From Arcobacter sp. F2176 (GTDB lineage: Bacteria > Campylobacterota > Campylobacteria > Campylobacterales > Arcobacteraceae): a stretch of DNA of 64,000 nt. Below, piece after piece: positions 13,172 to 23,915 of this stretch; the stretch's first letter is position 1; each line of letters begins with the position of its first letter. The position numbers and the translations under genes are program-made. Under the pieces are notes generated by a model. That model made no database searches, was not told the DNA's origin, and saw only the letters and a program-made list of their open reading frames with translations. The stretch covers positions 1-64,000 of the forward strand of contig NZ_PDJV01000005.1 in the NCBI RefSeq assembly GCF_004116465.1. Reading direction: 5' to 3'.

Positions 13172-13185
13172 AAGACTACACTCTT
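13162..13185. terminator. hairpin overlapping the MATE stop codon, possible convergent terminator
   Basis: A perfect 10-bp inverted repeat, AAGAGTGTAG/CTACACTCTT with loop AAGA, which includes the MATE stop codon. It lies between the convergent MATE gene and the 108-residue Cys-rich gene. There is no T tract on the + strand side, so termination efficiency is uncertain. Confidence 0.5.
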
Positions 13186-13203
13186 TAAAAAAAATAGATT
13201 TTA

Positions 13204-13530
13204 TTATTTCATCTCTTTTTTCTTCATACCTTTCATATCTTCACCACCACATTTACCTGCTCCACAAGAACCTGTAGCTTTATTTCCAGATTTCTTCATC
13301 ATATCATTATTCATATGATCTTTTTTCATCATCTGTTTTTTAGAATCACCACATTTACCAGTTCCACAAGAACCAACTTTTTTCATCTCTTCTGAGCTCA
13401 TGCCTTTTTTCATCATAGTTTTGTTAGAGTCTCCACATTTACCCGCCCCACAAGAACCAGTTTTACCATCTGCAAAAGATACACCAGCTGTAAATAGTAG
13501 TCCAGCTACTAACATAATAATATTTTTCAT
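13204..13530 (-). CDS. periplasmic Cys/Met-rich protein with CGxGKCG repeats
   Basis: A 108-residue protein with a signal peptide (cleavage probable after residue 20, GVSFA). The mature part has three near-identical repeats, GSCGAGKCG (25-33), GSCGTGKCG (53-61) and GSCGAGKCG (87-95). They are separated by MMKK-rich linkers containing 12 methionines. Cys and Met clusters of this kind bind Cu(I). The repeats resemble the EGKCG repeats of HvfA-type RiPP precursors, whose cysteines are modified by a DUF692 (MNIO) enzyme, but no such enzyme lies in this window. It follows cusA by 68 bases and has its own candidate operator, so a periplasmic copper buffer is the best inference. Confidence 0.75.
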   Translation of the reverse strand: MKNIIMLVAGLLFTAGVSFADGKTGSCGAGKCGDSNKTMMKKGMSSEEMKKVGSCGTGKCGDSKKQMMKKDHMNNDMMKKSGNKATGSCGAGKCGGEDMKGMKKKEMK

Positions 13531-13570: not shown

Positions 13571-13586
13571 GTGTAATTTATGTGTA
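13571..13586 (-). promoter_or_regulatory. candidate copper-regulator operator (site 1)
   Basis: On the minus strand, TACAC-N6-TACAC, i.e. half-sites exactly 11 bp apart, ending 40 bases upstream of the CGxGKCG gene. The same geometry appears at three other promoters of this copper island. Confidence 0.5.
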
Positions 13587-16724: not shown

Positions 16725-17708
16725 TTACCAATCATTGTCTTCATCTTCATACAAATTATTTGTCACAGCATCTGAATCTAGTAAAAATAAGGCATTATCT
16801 ATTACCTCATCACCAACTTTTAGACCATCTTCTATCTCATATTTTCCAGAACTTATCTGTTTTGCGTCTATTAATACTGGTTCAAATTCATCTTTTGATA
16901 TGTATTTAAATACATAATATTTTGCACCTTTTCTTAAAACTGCTGTTTTAGGCAGTGTTAATACCTTTTTAGAACTTGTTTTTATTATAGCTTTACCAAA
17001 CATATTAGGGAAAAGTGTTTTATCTTTGTTTTCTATTACAAATCGTACATCTATAGTTTTACTCTGTTTATTTGCATAAGGATAGATATAGTCAACTTTA
17101 GTTTTAAAGATCATATCTCTTCCATCAATTTTGATTTTAGCATCCATATTATTAGTTAAAAATGCCAAATCACTTTGATAAACTTTTGAGATAAACCAAA
17201 GCTTATTTATATTTGCTATTTGCATAATAAGTGAGCCTGTTTTGACATAAGAGCCTTCATTTATTTTCTTATTTAAGATTATTCCATCAAAAGGAGCATA
17301 AAAAGATATATCTTTACTTTTTAATTGAGAAAGGTTGACATCTAAAGAATCAAGCTTTTCAAGGGAACTTTTGTACATAGCTTTATTTATAGATCTTGTG
17401 ACTTCTATCTCTTTTTTTATGCTTTGGATTTTATCTGAGTACAAAGAAAAAAGTTTATCTGCTTTTTTCACTTCCATAAGATTTTTATTTGCATCTAGCT
17501 TTGTGATATAACCATCAAATCTAAGAACTATGTCTTTTATACTCTCTTCTGCAAATAAAGTCTCACCATAAAAGCTTTTTGTCTCATAAACACTCTCATC
17601 TTTTACTTTAACAATCTTTTTATTGAATAGTTGATTTGCATCTAAAATCTTCGCATCTAGTGAACTTAGGTATAACAATAATAAAAGTAATTTAAATATA
17701 TTTTTCAT
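16725..17708 (-). CDS. cusB: RND periplasmic adaptor (CusB-like)
   Basis: Membrane-fusion protein of 327 residues linking the pump to the outer-membrane channel. It has a signal peptide (MKNIFKLLLLLLYLSSLDA). An alpha-helical hairpin (about 95-135) is flanked by split lipoyl halves, with FYAPFDGIILNKKINEGSYVKTG near residue 136. Beta-barrel segments follow. It is shorter than E. coli CusB (about 400 residues), with little N-terminal metal-binding extension. Its start overlaps the stop of the TolC-family gene (ATGA), indicating translational coupling. Confidence 0.88.
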   Translation of the reverse strand: MKNIFKLLLLLLYLSSLDAKILDANQLFNKKIVKVKDESVYETKSFYGETLFAEESIKDIVLRFDGYITKLDANKNLMEVKKADKLFSLYSDKIQSIKKEIEVTRSINKAMYKSSLEKLDSLDVNLSQLKSKDISFYAPFDGIILNKKINEGSYVKTGSLIMQIANINKLWFISKVYQSDLAFLTNNMDAKIKIDGRDMIFKTKVDYIYPYANKQSKTIDVRFVIENKDKTLFPNMFGKAIIKTSSKKVLTLPKTAVLRKGAKYYVFKYISKDEFEPVLIDAKQISSGKYEIEDGLKVGDEVIDNALFLLDSDAVTNNLYEDEDNDW

Positions 17709-18901
17709 CTAATTTTTCCTTGATTATAATAATAAGCTTGCGAATAAGCATCAAAGTAGTTTTTTACCTCGTCATATTGAGCAATTTTGTTTTGTATGAT
17801 TTTGTTTAGATTTTTTAGTATTTCATCTGATTTTATAAGTTCTAGACTATTGTATTTTTCTATTGTTTTTTGATTTTCTTCTTGTAAAGGTATAATTAGA
17901 TCTTTTAAAAGTTTATATTTCTTGATTGAGCTATCTAAGTCATTTTGCAAAGAAGCAATTTTTATCTCAAATCTCTTTTTAGTATCATCAAGTTTATCTT
18001 TAAATTCTCTTGATTTAATCTTTGCTTGTAATATCTTTATATTCTCTTTTCCATAAAAAGCAAGGGGAATACTAAGTGATATATTTGCATAATCCTTATA
18101 CTTGTCATCCCTTTGAAAATATACAGCGCTTACTTTTATATCTGATAATTTTTTTGCATCTTCTAGTTGTGCTTGTTTATTAAATTTTTCATTATTTTGT
18201 TCTAGTATCTTTATTATTGGGTGGGTAGAGATATCTTTTGAGAAAATTAACTCTTTTACATCTAAAGAAACATCTATACTTGTGATTTTTTCGTATGTTA
18301 TTTCTTCTAGTTTTAAGTAATTGTTTTTGATAATATTTTGCAAATTTTCTTTTTGTATTTCTATTTTTAAATAATCTGTTTTTAGATTTATAATCATACT
18401 TTGATTTGATTTATTGCTTTCATATAAAGAAGTTGTCAGATCTTCTAGGCTTTTTATATTTTTTTGATATTGATTAAGTAGTAAATATTTGTTTTCTAAG
18501 ATTTTTATACTATATAAATACTCTATAAGTTTTGATTTTAATTTTAGTTTTGCATCTTCGTAATTTAGATTTGAGATAGCTTTATCTTTCAGGGCTATCT
18601 CTTCTTGTAGTTTGATTTTCCCATTTATAGGTATATTCTGTGAGAAACCTATATATTGTGCTTGCATTGGCTCCAGATCTCTTCGAGAAGTGTCAAACTG
18701 CAAGTCGTTGGCACCAATGGTCAAAATAGGATTATCCCACTTATTTGATAGCTTAATTTGCTCATTTGCTATTTGTATAGATTTTTCAATAGCTTGTAGG
18801 TTTTTATTATTTACTATTGCACTATTTATTATATTTTCTAAGCTTGTAGAAAATGAGCTTGTAATTATCAAACAAGTTAGAATAAAACTATTTCTTAACA
18901 T
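17705..18901 (-). CDS. TolC-family outer-membrane efflux channel (CusC-like)
   Basis: A 398-residue protein with a signal sequence at the N-terminus and long alpha-helical stretches in two similar halves, as in TolC/OEP proteins (for example NKWDNPILTIGANDLQFD near residue 52 and YKDYANISLSIPLAFYG near 270). It presumably forms the outer-membrane duct of the efflux complex. Its ATG shares one base with the stop of the upstream FixH/YtkA-like gene, and its stop overlaps the adaptor start. Confidence 0.88.
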   Translation of the reverse strand: MLRNSFILTCLIITSSFSTSLENIINSAIVNNKNLQAIEKSIQIANEQIKLSNKWDNPILTIGANDLQFDTSRRDLEPMQAQYIGFSQNIPINGKIKLQEEIALKDKAISNLNYEDAKLKLKSKLIEYLYSIKILENKYLLLNQYQKNIKSLEDLTTSLYESNKSNQSMIINLKTDYLKIEIQKENLQNIIKNNYLKLEEITYEKITSIDVSLDVKELIFSKDISTHPIIKILEQNNEKFNKQAQLEDAKKLSDIKVSAVYFQRDDKYKDYANISLSIPLAFYGKENIKILQAKIKSREFKDKLDDTKKRFEIKIASLQNDLDSSIKKYKLLKDLIIPLQEENQKTIEKYNSLELIKSDEILKNLNKIIQNKIAQYDEVKNYFDAYSQAYYYNQGKIR

Positions 18902-19284
18902 TAGATGTTTACACTCCCTCTTACAGTATGAACTTTCCCATCTTCTGTTTTAAATTTTAGTTGGTACTGCCAAGTTCCACCCATAGCAAAATTTACACTT
19001 GCTTTAAATTTACCATCAACAATTTTTCCTTTTACTTCACTCTCCATATATGGCATTCCAGGCATCTCTGGCATAAAGAACTTTATTTTTACTTTTGTAT
19101 CTGAAAGATTTGCACCATCTTTTGCTAACTCTATAATGATTTCATTGCTTCCCATTACTAGTGATTTTTCACTACTTAGTTTTACATCATACCCATCTTT
19201 ACTTCCTTCTTGAAGTAGTGGATCTGCATGAACTAAGTTAAATGCTATTAGCAAACCAGCGAATAATTTAAAGATATTTTTCAT
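18901..19284 (-). CDS. periplasmic FixH/YtkA-like protein
   Basis: A 127-residue exported protein (signal peptide ending near LVHA). The mature part has an immunoglobulin-like beta fold, with the pattern seen in YtkA/FixH domains: GYDVKLSSEKSLVMGSN, the Met-rich turn FFMPEMPGMPYM and the ending GGTWQYQLKFKTEDGK. Such proteins often lead RND metal-efflux operons and may deliver copper to the adaptor. That function is inferred from the Met cluster and context. First gene of the efflux operon. Its SD sits in a hairpin (19293-19313). Confidence 0.75.
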   Translation of the reverse strand: MKNIFKLFAGLLIAFNLVHADPLLQEGSKDGYDVKLSSEKSLVMGSNEIIIELAKDGANLSDTKVKIKFFMPEMPGMPYMESEVKGKIVDGKFKASVNFAMGGTWQYQLKFKTEDGKVHTVRGSVNI

Positions 19285-19327: not shown

Positions 19328-19343
19328 GTGTGGAGTGTGTGTG
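19328..19343 (-). promoter_or_regulatory. candidate copper-regulator operator (site 2)
   Basis: On the minus strand, CACAC-N6-CACAC within a 9-bp perfect direct repeat (CTCCACACA twice, 11 bp apart). It is GC-rich against a very AT-rich background and ends 43 bases upstream of the first efflux gene. OmpR-family regulators bind direct repeats spaced 10-11 bp. Confidence 0.6.
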
Positions 19344-19347
19344 GAGA

Positions 19348-20442
19348 TTAGAAGTTTAGAGTTATTGTTGTACTTTCATCATAAATAGAGTTAATATCTA
19401 TTTTTATATTGTATTTTTTACTTATCTCATTGACTATACTTAATCCAATACCAAAGCCACCTTGATAGGAAGTTGCTCTATAGTATCTTTTAAATATATC
19501 ATTTATTTTTGTCTGTTGTATTCCTATTCCTGTATCTTTTATAATAAGTTTATTATTATTTAGAGTAATAAAGATTGTTCCATTTATTTTATTATATTTT
19601 ATTGCATTTGAAATTAGATTATTAAATACTCTAATAAAGTCTTCTTTGAGTATTTTATAACTATATTCTTGGATATCTAAATTGATTTTTATTTTCTTTT
19701 TATTTGCTAAAGGCTCAAAATACAGTAGTTGTTCTTTTATAACTTCACCAAGAGATATCTCTTTTAAATCTTCTTTTTCAAAATCTTTTTGTAAAAAAAC
19801 ATATGTCAAGTCTTTGTAAATCTCAGAGACTCTTTTTGCGCTTAATCTTACACGCTCAATTTGTTTTGAATTTAAATCTTTACCTTCTGTAGACATAAGT
19901 ATTGCACTAATTGGTGTGTTTAATTCATGTGTTGTATCTTTTATAAAGTTATTTAACTTATCTCTTTCTTCTTTTATTGGCTTAATAAAGAGTTTTGCTA
20001 AATAAAATCCAATAAGAGCAATAATTGAATAAATAAGAAAGAAAAGTACTATTATGTTTATTTCTAACTCTTTTATTTGTTTAGAATACAGATGTTCTTT
20101 TATGGCAATTGCATATATTCCTAAGTGCCCAAAAGTAGACTTATCAACCAATACAAAGCTATTTTTTTCTTCTATAATATCTTTTTTTAAATCTATTTTT
20201 TCATCAATATTACCATAAACTTTTTTCCCACTATTATCATAAAAAGCCAATTTATAATCTTTTGGTTCAAAGTCTCCTGATATATCTATTTTTGTTCCAT
20301 TCATATGTGCAACTATTATTTTTGAAGCAATTTTTGAAGCAATATTTTGCATTCTTGATTTTGTTAAATCAAAATAGAGTTTTTGTTGGTTTTCAAAATA
20401 CAAAAAAGCTATCAAAGTCATTAATATAAAAGATGATCCCAA
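19348..20442 (-). CDS. copper-type sensor histidine kinase
   Basis: Membrane sensor kinase. There are two membrane helices (about residues 1-15 and 125-150 from the TTG) around a periplasmic sensor of about 105 residues. The H-box is DTTHELNTPISAIL, the N-box NLISNAIKYN, and the ATP-lid motifs IKDTGIGI and GGFGIGLSI. It pairs with the adjacent regulator and probably senses periplasmic copper. The only in-frame start here is TTG at 20442, which cuts into the first helix. The natural ATG at 20480 overlaps the regulator stop (ATGA) but is one base out of frame across an A6 run. One extra A would restore a typical N-terminus (MKKSTFYKFLSLYLGSS). Confidence 0.8.
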   Translation of the reverse strand: MGSSFILMTLIAFLYFENQQKLYFDLTKSRMQNIASKIASKIIVAHMNGTKIDISGDFEPKDYKLAFYDNSGKKVYGNIDEKIDLKKDIIEEKNSFVLVDKSTFGHLGIYAIAIKEHLYSKQIKELEINIIVLFFLIYSIIALIGFYLAKLFIKPIKEERDKLNNFIKDTTHELNTPISAILMSTEGKDLNSKQIERVRLSAKRVSEIYKDLTYVFLQKDFEKEDLKEISLGEVIKEQLLYFEPLANKKKIKINLDIQEYSYKILKEDFIRVFNNLISNAIKYNKINGTIFITLNNNKLIIKDTGIGIQQTKINDIFKRYYRATSYQGGFGIGLSIVNEISKKYNIKIDINSIYDESTTITLNF

Positions 20443-20476: not shown

Positions 20477-21139
20477 TCATTTGCTGTTAAATCTATAACC
20501 TACTCCTCTTATATTTGTAATCATATTTTCCTCTAGAATTTTTCTAAGATTTTTTATATATGTTCTTATGGTAGAGGCATTGGGGCTCTCTTCATATACC
20601 CAAACATTTGAAGACAACTCTTCTACACTTATTATTTTATTTTTATTTCTTATAAAATACATCAACACTTCTATCTCTTTTTTTGATAAATGTATCTCTT
20701 CGTTTTCTTTTATTACAAGTAAATTATTTGCATCAAGAATCATATTATTTGATAATTCTAATTGAGTTGAAGAAGAGATATTGAAGAGTCTTTTTATGTT
20801 ATTTATTCGTAAATCAAGTTCTTTTAACTCAAAAGGTTTTTTTATATAATCATCACAACCACTTTGAAAACCTTTTTCTATGTCATCAGTTAAATTTAAC
20901 GATGTTAAAAAGATTGCAGGAGTTTTAATATTGTTTTTTCTTAAGTCAGATAGAAGATCAAAACCCTTTATTTCTGGTACATTTACATCTAAAAGTAATA
21001 AATCAAATTTTTGAGAATACAATAATTCCTCTGCTTCGTTACCTGTAAAAGTAGTTATAACTTTATGTCCCATTTCCAATAAATGTTCTTCTATAATCTC
21101 ATTTAAAATCAAATCATCTTCCATCAAAAGTATTTTCAT
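20477..21139 (-). CDS. OmpR-family response regulator (copper island)
   Basis: A 220-residue regulator. The receiver domain has the phospho-acceptor Asp in LLLLDVNVPEIKG and Lys in KKPFE. The C-terminal winged helix ends IRTYIKNLRKIL and NIRGVGYRFN. I chose the ATG at 21139 (MKILLMEDD) rather than the upstream extension because AAGGAACT lies just before it and it matches the family N-terminus. Its stop overlaps the apparent ATG of the kinase. It probably binds the 11-bp-spaced ACAC repeats described at four promoters of this island, and is divergent from the DUF411 gene. Confidence 0.9.
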   Translation of the reverse strand: MKILLMEDDLILNEIIEEHLLEMGHKVITTFTGNEAEELLYSQKFDLLLLDVNVPEIKGFDLLSDLRKNNIKTPAIFLTSLNLTDDIEKGFQSGCDDYIKKPFELKELDLRINNIKRLFNISSSTQLELSNNMILDANNLLVIKENEEIHLSKKEIEVLMYFIRNKNKIISVEELSSNVWVYEESPNASTIRTYIKNLRKILEENMITNIRGVGYRFNSK

Positions 21140-21209
21140 CGAGTTCCTTTTAAAAAAGTAATTGTAGCATAATATATTTTTTTGCATTTTATTTCTCTTA
21201 TTCTATTTG

Positions 21210-21225
21210 CACACTTTTTACACAT
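21210..21225 (+). promoter_or_regulatory. candidate copper-regulator operator (site 3)
   Basis: CACAC-N6-CACAT on the + strand in the divergent region between the response regulator and the DUF411 gene, ending 62 bases before the latter. One half-site has a mismatch, so this is the weakest of the four sites. Two copies of CTCTTGATA (21227 and 21245, 18 bp apart) lie directly beside it. Confidence 0.4.
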
Positions 21226-21287: not shown

Positions 21288-21716
21288 ATGAAAAAGACAA
21301 TATTATTTTTAATATTTATTGCCATAACTACTTTTGCAAATGGGAATAAGACAATGACTGTTTACAAATCACCTTATTGTGAGTGTTGTGAAAATTGGAT
21401 CAATATTATGAAAACAAAAGGCTTTGATATAAAAGTCTACCAAACAAACAATATGAATGAAATCAAAAAGAAAGCAGGTCTTCAAGCTGAACAAACTTCA
21501 TGTCACACAGCCTTTGTAGATGGTTACTTTATTGAAGGACATGTTGATTATTCGGCTATTGAAAAAATGTTGGCTGAGAAACCTGATATTTTAGGTATTT
21601 CTACTCCTGGCATGCCTTTAGGAAGTCCAGGCATGGAACAAGATAATATTAAACAACACTACAATATTATTTATGTGAAAAAAGATGGTTCGCAAGGAAT
21701 TTATGAAAAACATTAA
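21288..21716 (+). CDS. DUF411 metal-binding protein
   Basis: A 142-residue exported protein (signal peptide about residues 1-19). The DUF411 signature is the Cys cluster YCECCENW at 30-37, a further Cys in SCHTAFVDGYFIEGHV near residue 66, and the Met/Gly-rich tail ISTPGMPLGSPGME. DUF411 proteins are regularly encoded with copper-resistance genes and are thought to bind or deliver copper in the periplasm. It is transcribed away from the two-component genes and converges on copA over a shared terminator. Confidence 0.88.
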   Translation: MKKTILFLIFIAITTFANGNKTMTVYKSPYCECCENWINIMKTKGFDIKVYQTNNMNEIKKKAGLQAEQTSCHTAFVDGYFIEGHVDYSAIEKMLAEKPDILGISTPGMPLGSPGMEQDNIKQHYNIIYVKKDGSQGIYEKH

Positions 21717-21746
21717 AAAAGTTGTAAATTATATTTACAACTTTTT
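21716..21746. terminator. bidirectional terminator between the DUF411 gene and copA
   Basis: A 14-bp perfect inverted repeat (21716-21729 with 21733-21746; loop TAT) whose arms begin with five A and end with five T. It therefore has a T run on both strands. It overlaps the last bases of both convergent genes. Confidence 0.85.
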
Positions 21747-23915
21747 AATTTTTAGTCTCAATGAATTTAAAACAACACTCACTGAAGAAAAACTCATCGC
21801 AATACCTGCATACATTGGATTTAACATCAATCCAAAGATTGGGTATAAAATCCCTGCTGCAAGTGGTATTCCTAATATATTATAAGTAAATGCCCAAAAT
21901 AAGTTTTGTTTCACTATTTTCATTGTCTCAATAGATAAATTAATACTTTTAATAATAGAACTTAGTTCATTATGTACTAAAATTATATCTCCAGCATCTT
22001 TAGTAATATCAGAACCAGAGTTTAAAGTAATCCCTATATTTGCTTGTTTTATAGAGGGAGCATCATTTATTCCATCTCCTATAAACATCACTTTTGATTT
22101 CTTTTGCAACTCTTTTATTACTTCATATTTTTCTGTAGGTAAGACTTCACTATAAATCTTTTTGATCCCTAATTTATCAGCTATTTTAGCAGCTGTGATT
22201 TTATTATCACCTGTTAATAAGATAGGCTCTATATTTAGCTGTTTTAGCTCTTTTATCACAGTTATAGCATCATCTTTTAGCTTATCTTCTAAAGAAAAAG
22301 AGCCTATTGTTTTTTTATTTATGGCTACATAAATTAGCCCATTTGATTTTTCTAACTCTTCTAAATAGAATTCTTCATGGTTTTTGTCTATTTGAACACT
22401 GTTTTCATCTAATAACTTTTTATTACCTAAAACTATCTCATCACCATCAAAAGATACTTTTATGCCTTTTCCAGGGATAATATCTATATCTTTTATCTCT
22501 TTGTTTATATCATACTTTTTATCTTTGATAAAACTCACTATTGCTTTTGAAATAGGATGTTCACTATAGTTTTCAATTGAGCCTATTAGTTCAAAATATT
22601 TTTCATCAATATTTGTTTTTGAAACAGTTATTTCCCCTTTTGTCAATGTTCCTGTTTTATCAAATACTGCATATTTTATCTCTTTTATCTCTTCTAGTAT
22701 TTCTGGATTTTTAATCAAAATCCCCTCTTTTGCACCACGACTAACAGAACTTACTATTGCAATTGGTGTTGCTAGTCCTAAAGCACAAGGGCATGAGATA
22801 ATCAAAACACTAATTGCAGCTATTATTGCTTTTTGGAAATCTCCAAATACAAAACCCCAAACCAAAAATGCTAAAACAGAGATAACAATAACAGAAGGTA
22901 CAAATATATTTGCTACTTTATCTGCAAATCTACTAATTGGTATTTGTTTACTTTGTGCAGTTTTCAAAAGTGTAATTATTTTAGATAGTGTTGTATCAGA
23001 AGACTCTTTACTAACCTCTATTTTTATAGTTCCATTGCTATTTAAAGTTCCAGATAATACCTCATCTCCAAGTTTTTTAAAAATAGGCATTGATTCACCT
23101 GTTATCATTGAAGTATCAATATCAGCATTACCTTCAATGATAATACCATCTGTTGGTATTTTCTCTCCACTTTTTACAAGTACTATATCTTTTGGTTTTA
23201 AACTACTTGCTAGCACAGTTTTTATATTTTTGTTTTCATCTATCAAATTAGCATTTACAGGGGCTAAATTCATAAGTTTTTTTAAAAAATCACTCGCTTT
23301 TAGTTTTGAGTTTTCTTCTAAGTATCTTCCTAAAAGTACAAAAGTAATAATTACAGAGGCCCCATCAAAATATAAAAATCTCAAATTCTCAGGGAATAAG
23401 TGTGGAAAAAAGACTACAACTGTTGAGTAAAAGTATGCAGCACTAGTTCCTAGTGCAACTAAAACATTCATATCATAATTTCTATTTATAACGGACTTTA
23501 TTCCAAGTTTATAAAATCGTAATCCACAATAAAACTGAACAATAGAAGCTATTAAAAACACTACATATTTTGTCATTTGTTCATTAAATATATTTAAAAA
23601 CATTAGGCAAAACATAACAATAGTTAAGGTAATAGAGGTAAAAAATATTTTTTTTAGTTTTTTAAAAGAGAGTAATTGTTCTTCTTCTAAGGCTTTTAAA
23701 TCTTCTTCTGCCTTATAGCCTAATTTTTGTATATCACTAGCTAGTTTTTCTTTAGAATAAAGGGAATCATCAATAATAAACTCCCCTTCACTTGAAGCAA
23801 AGCTTACATTAGCAGAGATTACTCCCTTTTTTTTATTTAAAAATTTTTCTATTCCACCTGAACAATTGACACAAGTCATACCTGATATATTTAAATTAAT
23901 TTTTTCTTTTGCCAT
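21735..23915 (-). CDS. copA: Cu(I)-exporting P1B-type ATPase CopA
   Basis: A 726-residue copper ATPase. There is one N-terminal heavy-metal domain with GMTCVNC (Cys15, Cys18). The membrane metal site is CPCALGLATP near residue 375. The phosphorylation loop is DKTGTLTKGE, with SEHPIS in the nucleotide domain and GDGINDAPSI as the hinge. Eight membrane helices are expected. It exports cytoplasmic Cu(I) across the inner membrane, complementing periplasmic export by the RND system. It lies ten bases after the CopZ-like gene and is probably cotranscribed with it. Confidence 0.95.
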   Translation of the reverse strand: MAKEKINLNISGMTCVNCSGGIEKFLNKKKGVISANVSFASSEGEFIIDDSLYSKEKLASDIQKLGYKAEEDLKALEEEQLLSFKKLKKIFFTSITLTIVMFCLMFLNIFNEQMTKYVVFLIASIVQFYCGLRFYKLGIKSVINRNYDMNVLVALGTSAAYFYSTVVVFFPHLFPENLRFLYFDGASVIITFVLLGRYLEENSKLKASDFLKKLMNLAPVNANLIDENKNIKTVLASSLKPKDIVLVKSGEKIPTDGIIIEGNADIDTSMITGESMPIFKKLGDEVLSGTLNSNGTIKIEVSKESSDTTLSKIITLLKTAQSKQIPISRFADKVANIFVPSVIVISVLAFLVWGFVFGDFQKAIIAAISVLIISCPCALGLATPIAIVSSVSRGAKEGILIKNPEILEEIKEIKYAVFDKTGTLTKGEITVSKTNIDEKYFELIGSIENYSEHPISKAIVSFIKDKKYDINKEIKDIDIIPGKGIKVSFDGDEIVLGNKKLLDENSVQIDKNHEEFYLEELEKSNGLIYVAINKKTIGSFSLEDKLKDDAITVIKELKQLNIEPILLTGDNKITAAKIADKLGIKKIYSEVLPTEKYEVIKELQKKSKVMFIGDGINDAPSIKQANIGITLNSGSDITKDAGDIILVHNELSSIIKSINLSIETMKIVKQNLFWAFTYNILGIPLAAGILYPIFGLMLNPMYAGIAMSFSSVSVVLNSLRLKIKKL

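Follow-up and report, generated by a model that had tools for sequence, protein, structure and literature searches.

An HvfA-derived, probably unmodified CGxGKCG protein at the copper-efflux locus of an Arcobacter genome without MNIO enzymes

HvfA-type precursors and the copper locus of Arcobacter sp. F2176

The closest described relatives of the protein considered here are the HvfA/oxazolin precursors (Buf_EGKCG; NCBIfam NF050137 and NF050188), small secreted low-complexity chains with a Sec signal peptide and repeated C-x4-C units containing GKCG. The family arrangement consists of the precursor, an MNIO enzyme and a PME-type partner. In H. influenzae, modification requires HvfB as well as HvfC, and the signal peptide serves as the leader for HvfBC (PMC13419390). 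The signal peptide is probably the leader for BufBC too (PMC12452194). HvfA-type chemistry has been reassigned to 5-thiooxazole (PMC13097082, PMC13419390). In a survey of MNIO precursors, those without an enzyme were rare (67 of 2,583 in complete bacterial genomes), and the survey left open the question of whether such precursors function without modification or are defunct (PMC12452194).

The DNA analysed here (the window) is a stretch of 64,000 nucleotides from contig NZ_PDJV01000005.1 of Arcobacter sp. F2176. An open reading frame on its minus strand, designated hvfA, is the final gene of a same-strand block comprising a response regulator, a kinase, YtkA and CusC-CusB-CusA. The features of the locus are listed below.

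Beyond 13172–13203: convergent MATE gene facing the 3′ end of hvfA (gene order)
13172–13203, no strand: 32-bp gap between hvfA and MATE, the site of MNIO and partner in sister genera (gene order, gap sequences)
13204–13530, minus: hvfA, HvfA-like CGxGKCG protein gene, 108 aa, ATG start (ORF and translation, NF050137, locus orthologs)
13246–13272, minus: core motif 3, GSCGAGKCG (pattern match 13247–13266)
13348–13374, minus: core motif 2, GSCGTGKCG (pattern match 13349–13368)
13432–13458, minus: core motif 1, GSCGAGKCG (pattern match 13433–13452)
13471–13530, minus: Sec-type signal peptide without the KxKLAGxxLGAALxxT signature, predicted cleavage between SFA and D (sequence)
13571–13586, minus: direct-repeat operator candidate TACAC-N6-TACAC, TACACATAAATTACAC, between cusA and hvfA, 56 bp upstream of the hvfA start codon
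13599–16718, minus: CusA/CzcA-family heavy-metal RND transporter (TIGR00914, 1024 bits)
16725–17708, minus: CusB-type membrane fusion protein (PF16576, TIGR01730)
17705–18901, minus: outer-membrane efflux protein, CusC-like (PF02321)
18901–19284, minus: YtkA-like periplasmic protein (PF13115)
19328–19343, minus: direct-repeat operator candidate at the YtkA-cusCBA promoter (strict pattern match)
19348–20442, minus: sensor histidine kinase (PF02518, PF00512)
20477–21187, minus: OmpR-type response regulator (translation and conserved synteny only)
21208–21224, plus: relaxed direct-repeat operator TGCACACTTTTTACACA, between the response regulator gene and DUF411
21288–21716, plus: DUF411 copper-associated protein (PF04214)
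21735–23915, minus: CopA-type Cu(I) P1B-ATPase (translation by inspection: N-terminal CxxC, CPC, DKTGT)

The translation of hvfA reads MKNIIMLVAGLLFTAGVSFA up to the predicted cleavage and DGKTGSCGAGKCGDSNKTMMKKGMSSEEMKKVGSCGTGKCGDSKKQMMKKDHMNNDMMKKSGNKATGSCGAGKCGGEDMKGMKKKEMK after it. The mature chain has 88 aa, among them 6 Cys, 12 Met and 21 Lys, with Lys/Met-rich linkers between the motifs. Its calculated mass is about 9,215 Da when unmodified with reduced cysteines, and conversion of all six to 5-thiooxazole, at −4 Da each, would take off about 24 Da. At the DNA level the CGxGKCG pattern was matched three times in the window, every time inside this ORF, where 0 matches were expected from 100 dinucleotide shuffles. 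A reading made earlier from the sequence only, without searches, had described three GSC-G(A/T)GKCG units behind a signal peptide, and the ORF, its translation and the pattern count agree with it.

The likeness to HvfA has limits. The hvfA product scored 20.0 bits against the 19.5-bit cut-off of the HvfA family domain NF050137, a marginal match that fell under the cut-off in the genome scan, and did not match the HvfA equivalog NF050188. The KCGEGKCG type of EGKCG 5-mer repeat was not found in it; its units are SCG[A/T]GKCG, with no E at the variable position, and each long Met/Lys linker goes with a single unit. Bufferin 1 (DUF2282) and Bufferin 2 share with it the idea of periplasmic copper buffering by Sec-exported Cys peptides but have another Cys pattern, and the Pfam scan of the hvfA product matched neither DUF2282 nor any family above its cut-off (the only match being DUF7016, E 0.35). 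Unmodified Cys/Met-rich periplasmic copper binders, whether metallothionein-like or CopM/CusF-like, resemble it in the proposed thiolate and thioether binding of Cu(I), whereas Pfam and PDB searches revealed no sequence relationship to them; the PDB search gave no relative at all. The AlphaFold2 model has no fold (pLDDT 44), and so offers no site geometry; disorder is predicted, in keeping with a flexible chain.

The copper context noted in the sequence-only reading, which placed the gene beside a Cu(I) efflux system, is upheld by the domain matches. The gene is more than the loose neighbour implied there: it closes the block, and its orthologs in sister genera are MNIO-linked precursors. The copper-type operator named in the same reading corresponds to a conserved direct repeat, for which a copper response would be a plausible property. 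The direct repeat TACACATAAATTACAC has a period of 11 bp, and an AT-rich stretch, GATTTTATAAAAT, comes after it. The strict pattern TACAC-N6-TACAC occurs twice in the window against 0.15 expected, and the repeat lies at the equivalent position upstream of hvfA in Arcobacter nitrofigilis and Arcobacter sp. BM504. In many related genomes it precedes hvfA or a yceI-hvfA unit, and random 200-bp windows carry it in 0.5–0.8% of cases. Most simply, it would be the binding site of the OmpR-type regulator of the locus itself. A gene for a YceI-family periplasmic protein (L057:7015-7593 and similar) frequently separates cusA from hvfA or immediately precedes hvfA, and the direct repeat stands ahead of yceI in many genera.

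Occurrence of the MNIO-partner pair

The 3.27-Mb assembly of the window genome is 99.98% complete in 98 contigs. No match to PF05114 (MNIO) was found across it, and tblastn with an Arcobacteraceae MNIO gave a best E value of 0.2. The partner domain PF22106 (PME/DUF2063-type) had no matches in this genome, in A. nitrofigilis or in strain BM504, and the window genome has no YcaO gene. A. nitrofigilis (genome of DSM 7299: PMC3035288) carries the equivalent locus on a closed, single contig of 3,192,235 bp, and searches with PF05114, PF22106 and tblastn found MNIO and partner likewise absent. Thus, what had been said of the window, that it encodes no DUF692/MNIO enzyme, extends to the whole genome: the suggested genome search for MNIO and DUF2063/HvfC-like genes, carried out with PF05114, PF22106 and tblastn, returned none.

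One half-length PF05114 match in strain BM504 (50 bits, positions 109–216; L042:8561-9349) was rejected as an MNIO. The protein has only 25% identity to a true MNIO, also matches the TIM barrel PF01261 (xylose-isomerase-like), and its gene cluster is unrelated by neighbourhood. It appears to be a TIM-barrel protein in a polysaccharide-type cluster and a possible false positive of the PF05114 model.

Loci were compared side by side in 104 Arcobacteraceae genomes, 37 of which have PF05114 and 50 a homolog of the hvfA product. Orthologs of hvfA occupy the equivalent locus in about 45 Arcobacteraceae, and in about 30 genomes other than that of the window hvfA is followed by MNIO, partner and MATE. 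The shared gene order is cusCBA, sometimes yceI, then hvfA, MNIO, partner, the convergent MATE, hom and aspC. Some genera have their cus block at another place, with yceI-hvfA-MNIO-partner-MATE intact. By locus and sequence, hvfA is the ortholog of the MNIO-linked precursors of sister genera, which conform to the HvfA family arrangement. The CGAGKCG precursors of the Halarcobacter, Poseidonibacter and Malaciobacter type, orthologous on the same two grounds, differ from the window protein in that they have kept the enzymes and a KxKLAGxxLGAAL signal peptide and contain fewer Met.

At several loci the MNIO-partner pair alone is missing. These are the loci of the window genome, A. nitrofigilis, strain BM504, 13 genomes of a second genus (g2, mostly Aliarcobacter) and genome G080. 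No remnant of MNIO or partner was seen on inspection of the sequences of the 32-bp gap between hvfA and MATE. On a HOM, AspC and MATE tree, which has no reliable root, the enzyme state changes at least four times, three of the changes being forced by starred branches. The MNIO-partner tree is broadly like the species tree without being identical to it, and departs from it for G077/G078. For the window genus, loss of the pair is a simpler reading than gain, short of proof, because the pair occupies the equivalent place in several distant genera.

Core motifs and signal peptides with and without the enzymes

The window genome and A. nitrofigilis represent the pair of species nearest to each other. 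Between them, all 6 changes in motif codons are synonymous (0 nonsynonymous), and dN/dS in the linkers is 0.17. The absence of amino-acid change in the motifs indicates purifying selection on a core whose enzymes are missing.

The signal peptide has a different history. The signature KxKLAGxxLGAALxxT is common to all 34 MNIO-linked precursors, which come from at least nine genera. Signal peptides were scored by a best-register profile from which the protein's own genus was left out, with the following results.

MNIO-linked precursors (34): 25.6 to 57.4
Window genus, at the level of the controls: −9.3, −2.3 and 2.3 (the window protein −2.3, the other two from A. nitrofigilis and strain BM504)
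MNIO-less members of genus g2: 10.5 to 30.1
G080: 31.0
Control signal peptides (unrelated, from the same loci): median −7.8, 95th percentile 1.9, maximum 7.5

A rank test within the family, which ignores relatedness, separated MNIO-linked from MNIO-less signal peptides with p = 3e-9. In other families, outside the profile set, five MNIO-linked precursors scored 7.8 to 35.0 as against −18.4 to 16.5 in twelve MNIO-less genomes (p = 0.007). Loss of the signature is expected for a protein no longer handed to an MNIO-type enzyme. The intermediate scores in genus g2 and the 31.0 of G080 would fit a later loss of the enzymes. Genome G034 provides a good internal control as it has two HvfA-like copies (L123, L124), one in an MNIO-partner-DoxX cluster elsewhere and one without enzymes at the cus locus; the MNIO-linked copy scored 31.3 and the enzyme-less one −4.1.

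Within the family, Thr fills the variable position of 21 out of 58 motifs that lack an MNIO and of 0 out of 130 that have one. Met makes up a fraction of 0.108 where MNIO is absent and 0.064 where it is present, the 14% of the window protein being the family maximum. In another family, Thr at this position is found beside an MNIO (G125). The links of Thr and Met to MNIO loss are treated as leads, not proof, because the independent contrasts number just three to four and cannot reach significance.

Taken by descent, the window protein is placed by its locus orthologs in the HvfA/oxazolin lineage; of the features of a modified RiPP, the enzyme, the partner and the leader-like signature of the signal peptide are all lacking. 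It should fittingly be named an HvfA-derived, MNIO-independent CGxGKCG protein and not an 'oxazolone/thioamide-modified RiPP'. Some of the orthologous loci have the enzymes and others lack them, with the core and the copper-type switch kept, which makes a clean natural experiment. It lets one ask what modification gains for copper tolerance, and examine the signal peptide as a recognition handle. The case is also a warning that automatic annotation labels unmodified proteins as modified RiPPs.

Role of the hvfA product and spread of the CGxGKCG module

The hvfA product is best explained as an orphaned HvfA/oxazolin-type precursor that has probably been kept as an unmodified thiol/thioether periplasmic Cu(I) buffer, a reading to which we assign a probability of about 0.68. 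An ancestor would have had a cus copper-efflux locus ending in hvfA, MNIO and partner, and in the lineage of the window MNIO and partner would have been lost and the precursor kept. Exported by Sec, the product would most likely act as a periplasmic, unmodified and disordered buffer, in which the six Cys of the C-x4-C units and the 12 linker Met could hold Cu(I) as thiolates and thioethers. A CusRS-like system would induce the locus, and the buffer would ease the load on CusCBA. We infer copper as ligand and inducer, and buffering as the role. Of the two options left side by side in the sequence-only reading, an unmodified sponge and a precursor whose processing enzyme is encoded at another place, the sponge is strongly favoured, because the enzymes are absent genome-wide and in the closed congener and the leader-like signature has been lost; copper binding and the unmodified state themselves would follow from this reading.

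With regard to function, the main rival is a metallochaperone, a substitute for CusF that would pass periplasmic Cu(I) to CusB/CusA. In its favour, hvfA comes immediately behind cusCBA at a locus in which no cusF gene of its own was recognised, and the CGxGKCG module is fused to PCuAC, a copper chaperone, as well as to YtkA, a member of the locus. However, low-complexity units in variable number (1–5) suit bulk binding more than a defined hand-over site, and the product is disordered in the AlphaFold2 model, so that we regard a chaperone as unlikely. A ligand other than copper (Ag, Hg, Au or Cd), or thiols acting as a redox sink, is more doubtful still. RND systems of the CusA/CzcA family are also exporters of Ag, and a MerTP protein in Campylobacterales has the same CGxGKCG tail, both of which count towards another soft metal, but PCuAC, YtkA and the cus setting indicate copper first.

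The main rival on chemistry is modification in trans by an enzyme that the searches failed to recognise; an MNIO hidden in an assembly gap would have the same effect. It has been suggested that a single MNIO may serve several precursors (PMC12452194), and the core of the hvfA product still fits the NF050137 family model. On the other side, the closed genome of A. nitrofigilis is likewise without MNIO, the partner genes and YcaO are missing as well, and the signal peptide, which is the leader in HvfA (PMC13419390), is here without its signature. Trans modification is accordingly given little weight, about that of a different ligand. It is very improbable that hvfA is decaying and no longer has a function: the enzymes are gone, but the frame is open, dN of the motif codons is 0, the signal peptide and promoter repeat are kept, and the gene is retained in three Arcobacter genomes and in the 13 of genus g2.

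Raw CGxGKCG counts were rejected as a measure of the family, at least one match (CGVGKCGAC, L100) looking like a [2Fe-2S] molybdenum-hydroxylase small subunit. Since such counts overstate the family, the census of 399 Campylobacterales genomes was carried out with the NF050137 cut-off. An NF050137-positive protein was present in 65 genomes and a true MNIO in 37, with 22 shared (odds ratio 11). MNIO is absent from 43 of the 65 positive genomes, and from 33 of 53 when near-complete genomes only are taken. Campylobacterales thus departs strongly from the published 67 of 2,583, the counts resting on different models and genome sets.

The motif also occurs fused to other proteins. A PCuAC tail with CGxGKCG is found in the window genome, A. 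nitrofigilis, strain BM504 (two units) and G035. In L160:1158-1634 (G225) and L163:1429-1875 (G203), both from MNIO-less genomes, a CGAGKCG module stands behind a signal peptide and before YtkA; as YtkA belongs to the cus locus of the window, this constitutes a fusion link. CGxGKCG follows cytochrome c in G118, G431 and G396, and CGxGKCG repeats end a MerTP protein (L199:3308-4042, G411) and a DsbD_2 protein (L197:2800-3591, G374). The genomes with fused modules are without MNIO, G035 excepted, the PF05114 match of strain BM504 being discounted.

CGxGKCG could be a general MNIO-independent soft-metal-binding module in Campylobacterota, used either as free repeats or fused to one end of proteins such as PCuAC, YtkA, cytochrome c, MerTP and DsbD-like proteins. 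The thiooxazole would then be an optional upgrade that lineages lose, compensating by a higher Met content, a Thr within the motif and a freely drifting signal peptide. We consider the chances of this proposal evenly balanced. If it is true, the label 'oxazolone/thioamide-modified RiPP metallophore' is wrong for most carriers in Campylobacterales.

Some further observations were made on the proteins and models concerned. The product name of NF050137 asserts oxazolone/thioamide modification, and most Campylobacterales carriers are without MNIO. The second CGTGKCG protein of the window genome is the copper chaperone PCuAC, whose Met-rich tail ends in SCGTGKCGSN (G000:C4:181313-181332; L058:8304-8819, minus strand). 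L198, L203 and L204 belong, like L197 and L199, to the MerTP, DsbD_2-type and c-type cytochrome proteins with terminal CGxGKCG repeats in genomes without PF05114. Outside Campylobacterota, the genome scan found a CGAGKCG-repeat protein in Thiotrichales bacterium 19S9-11 (L082).
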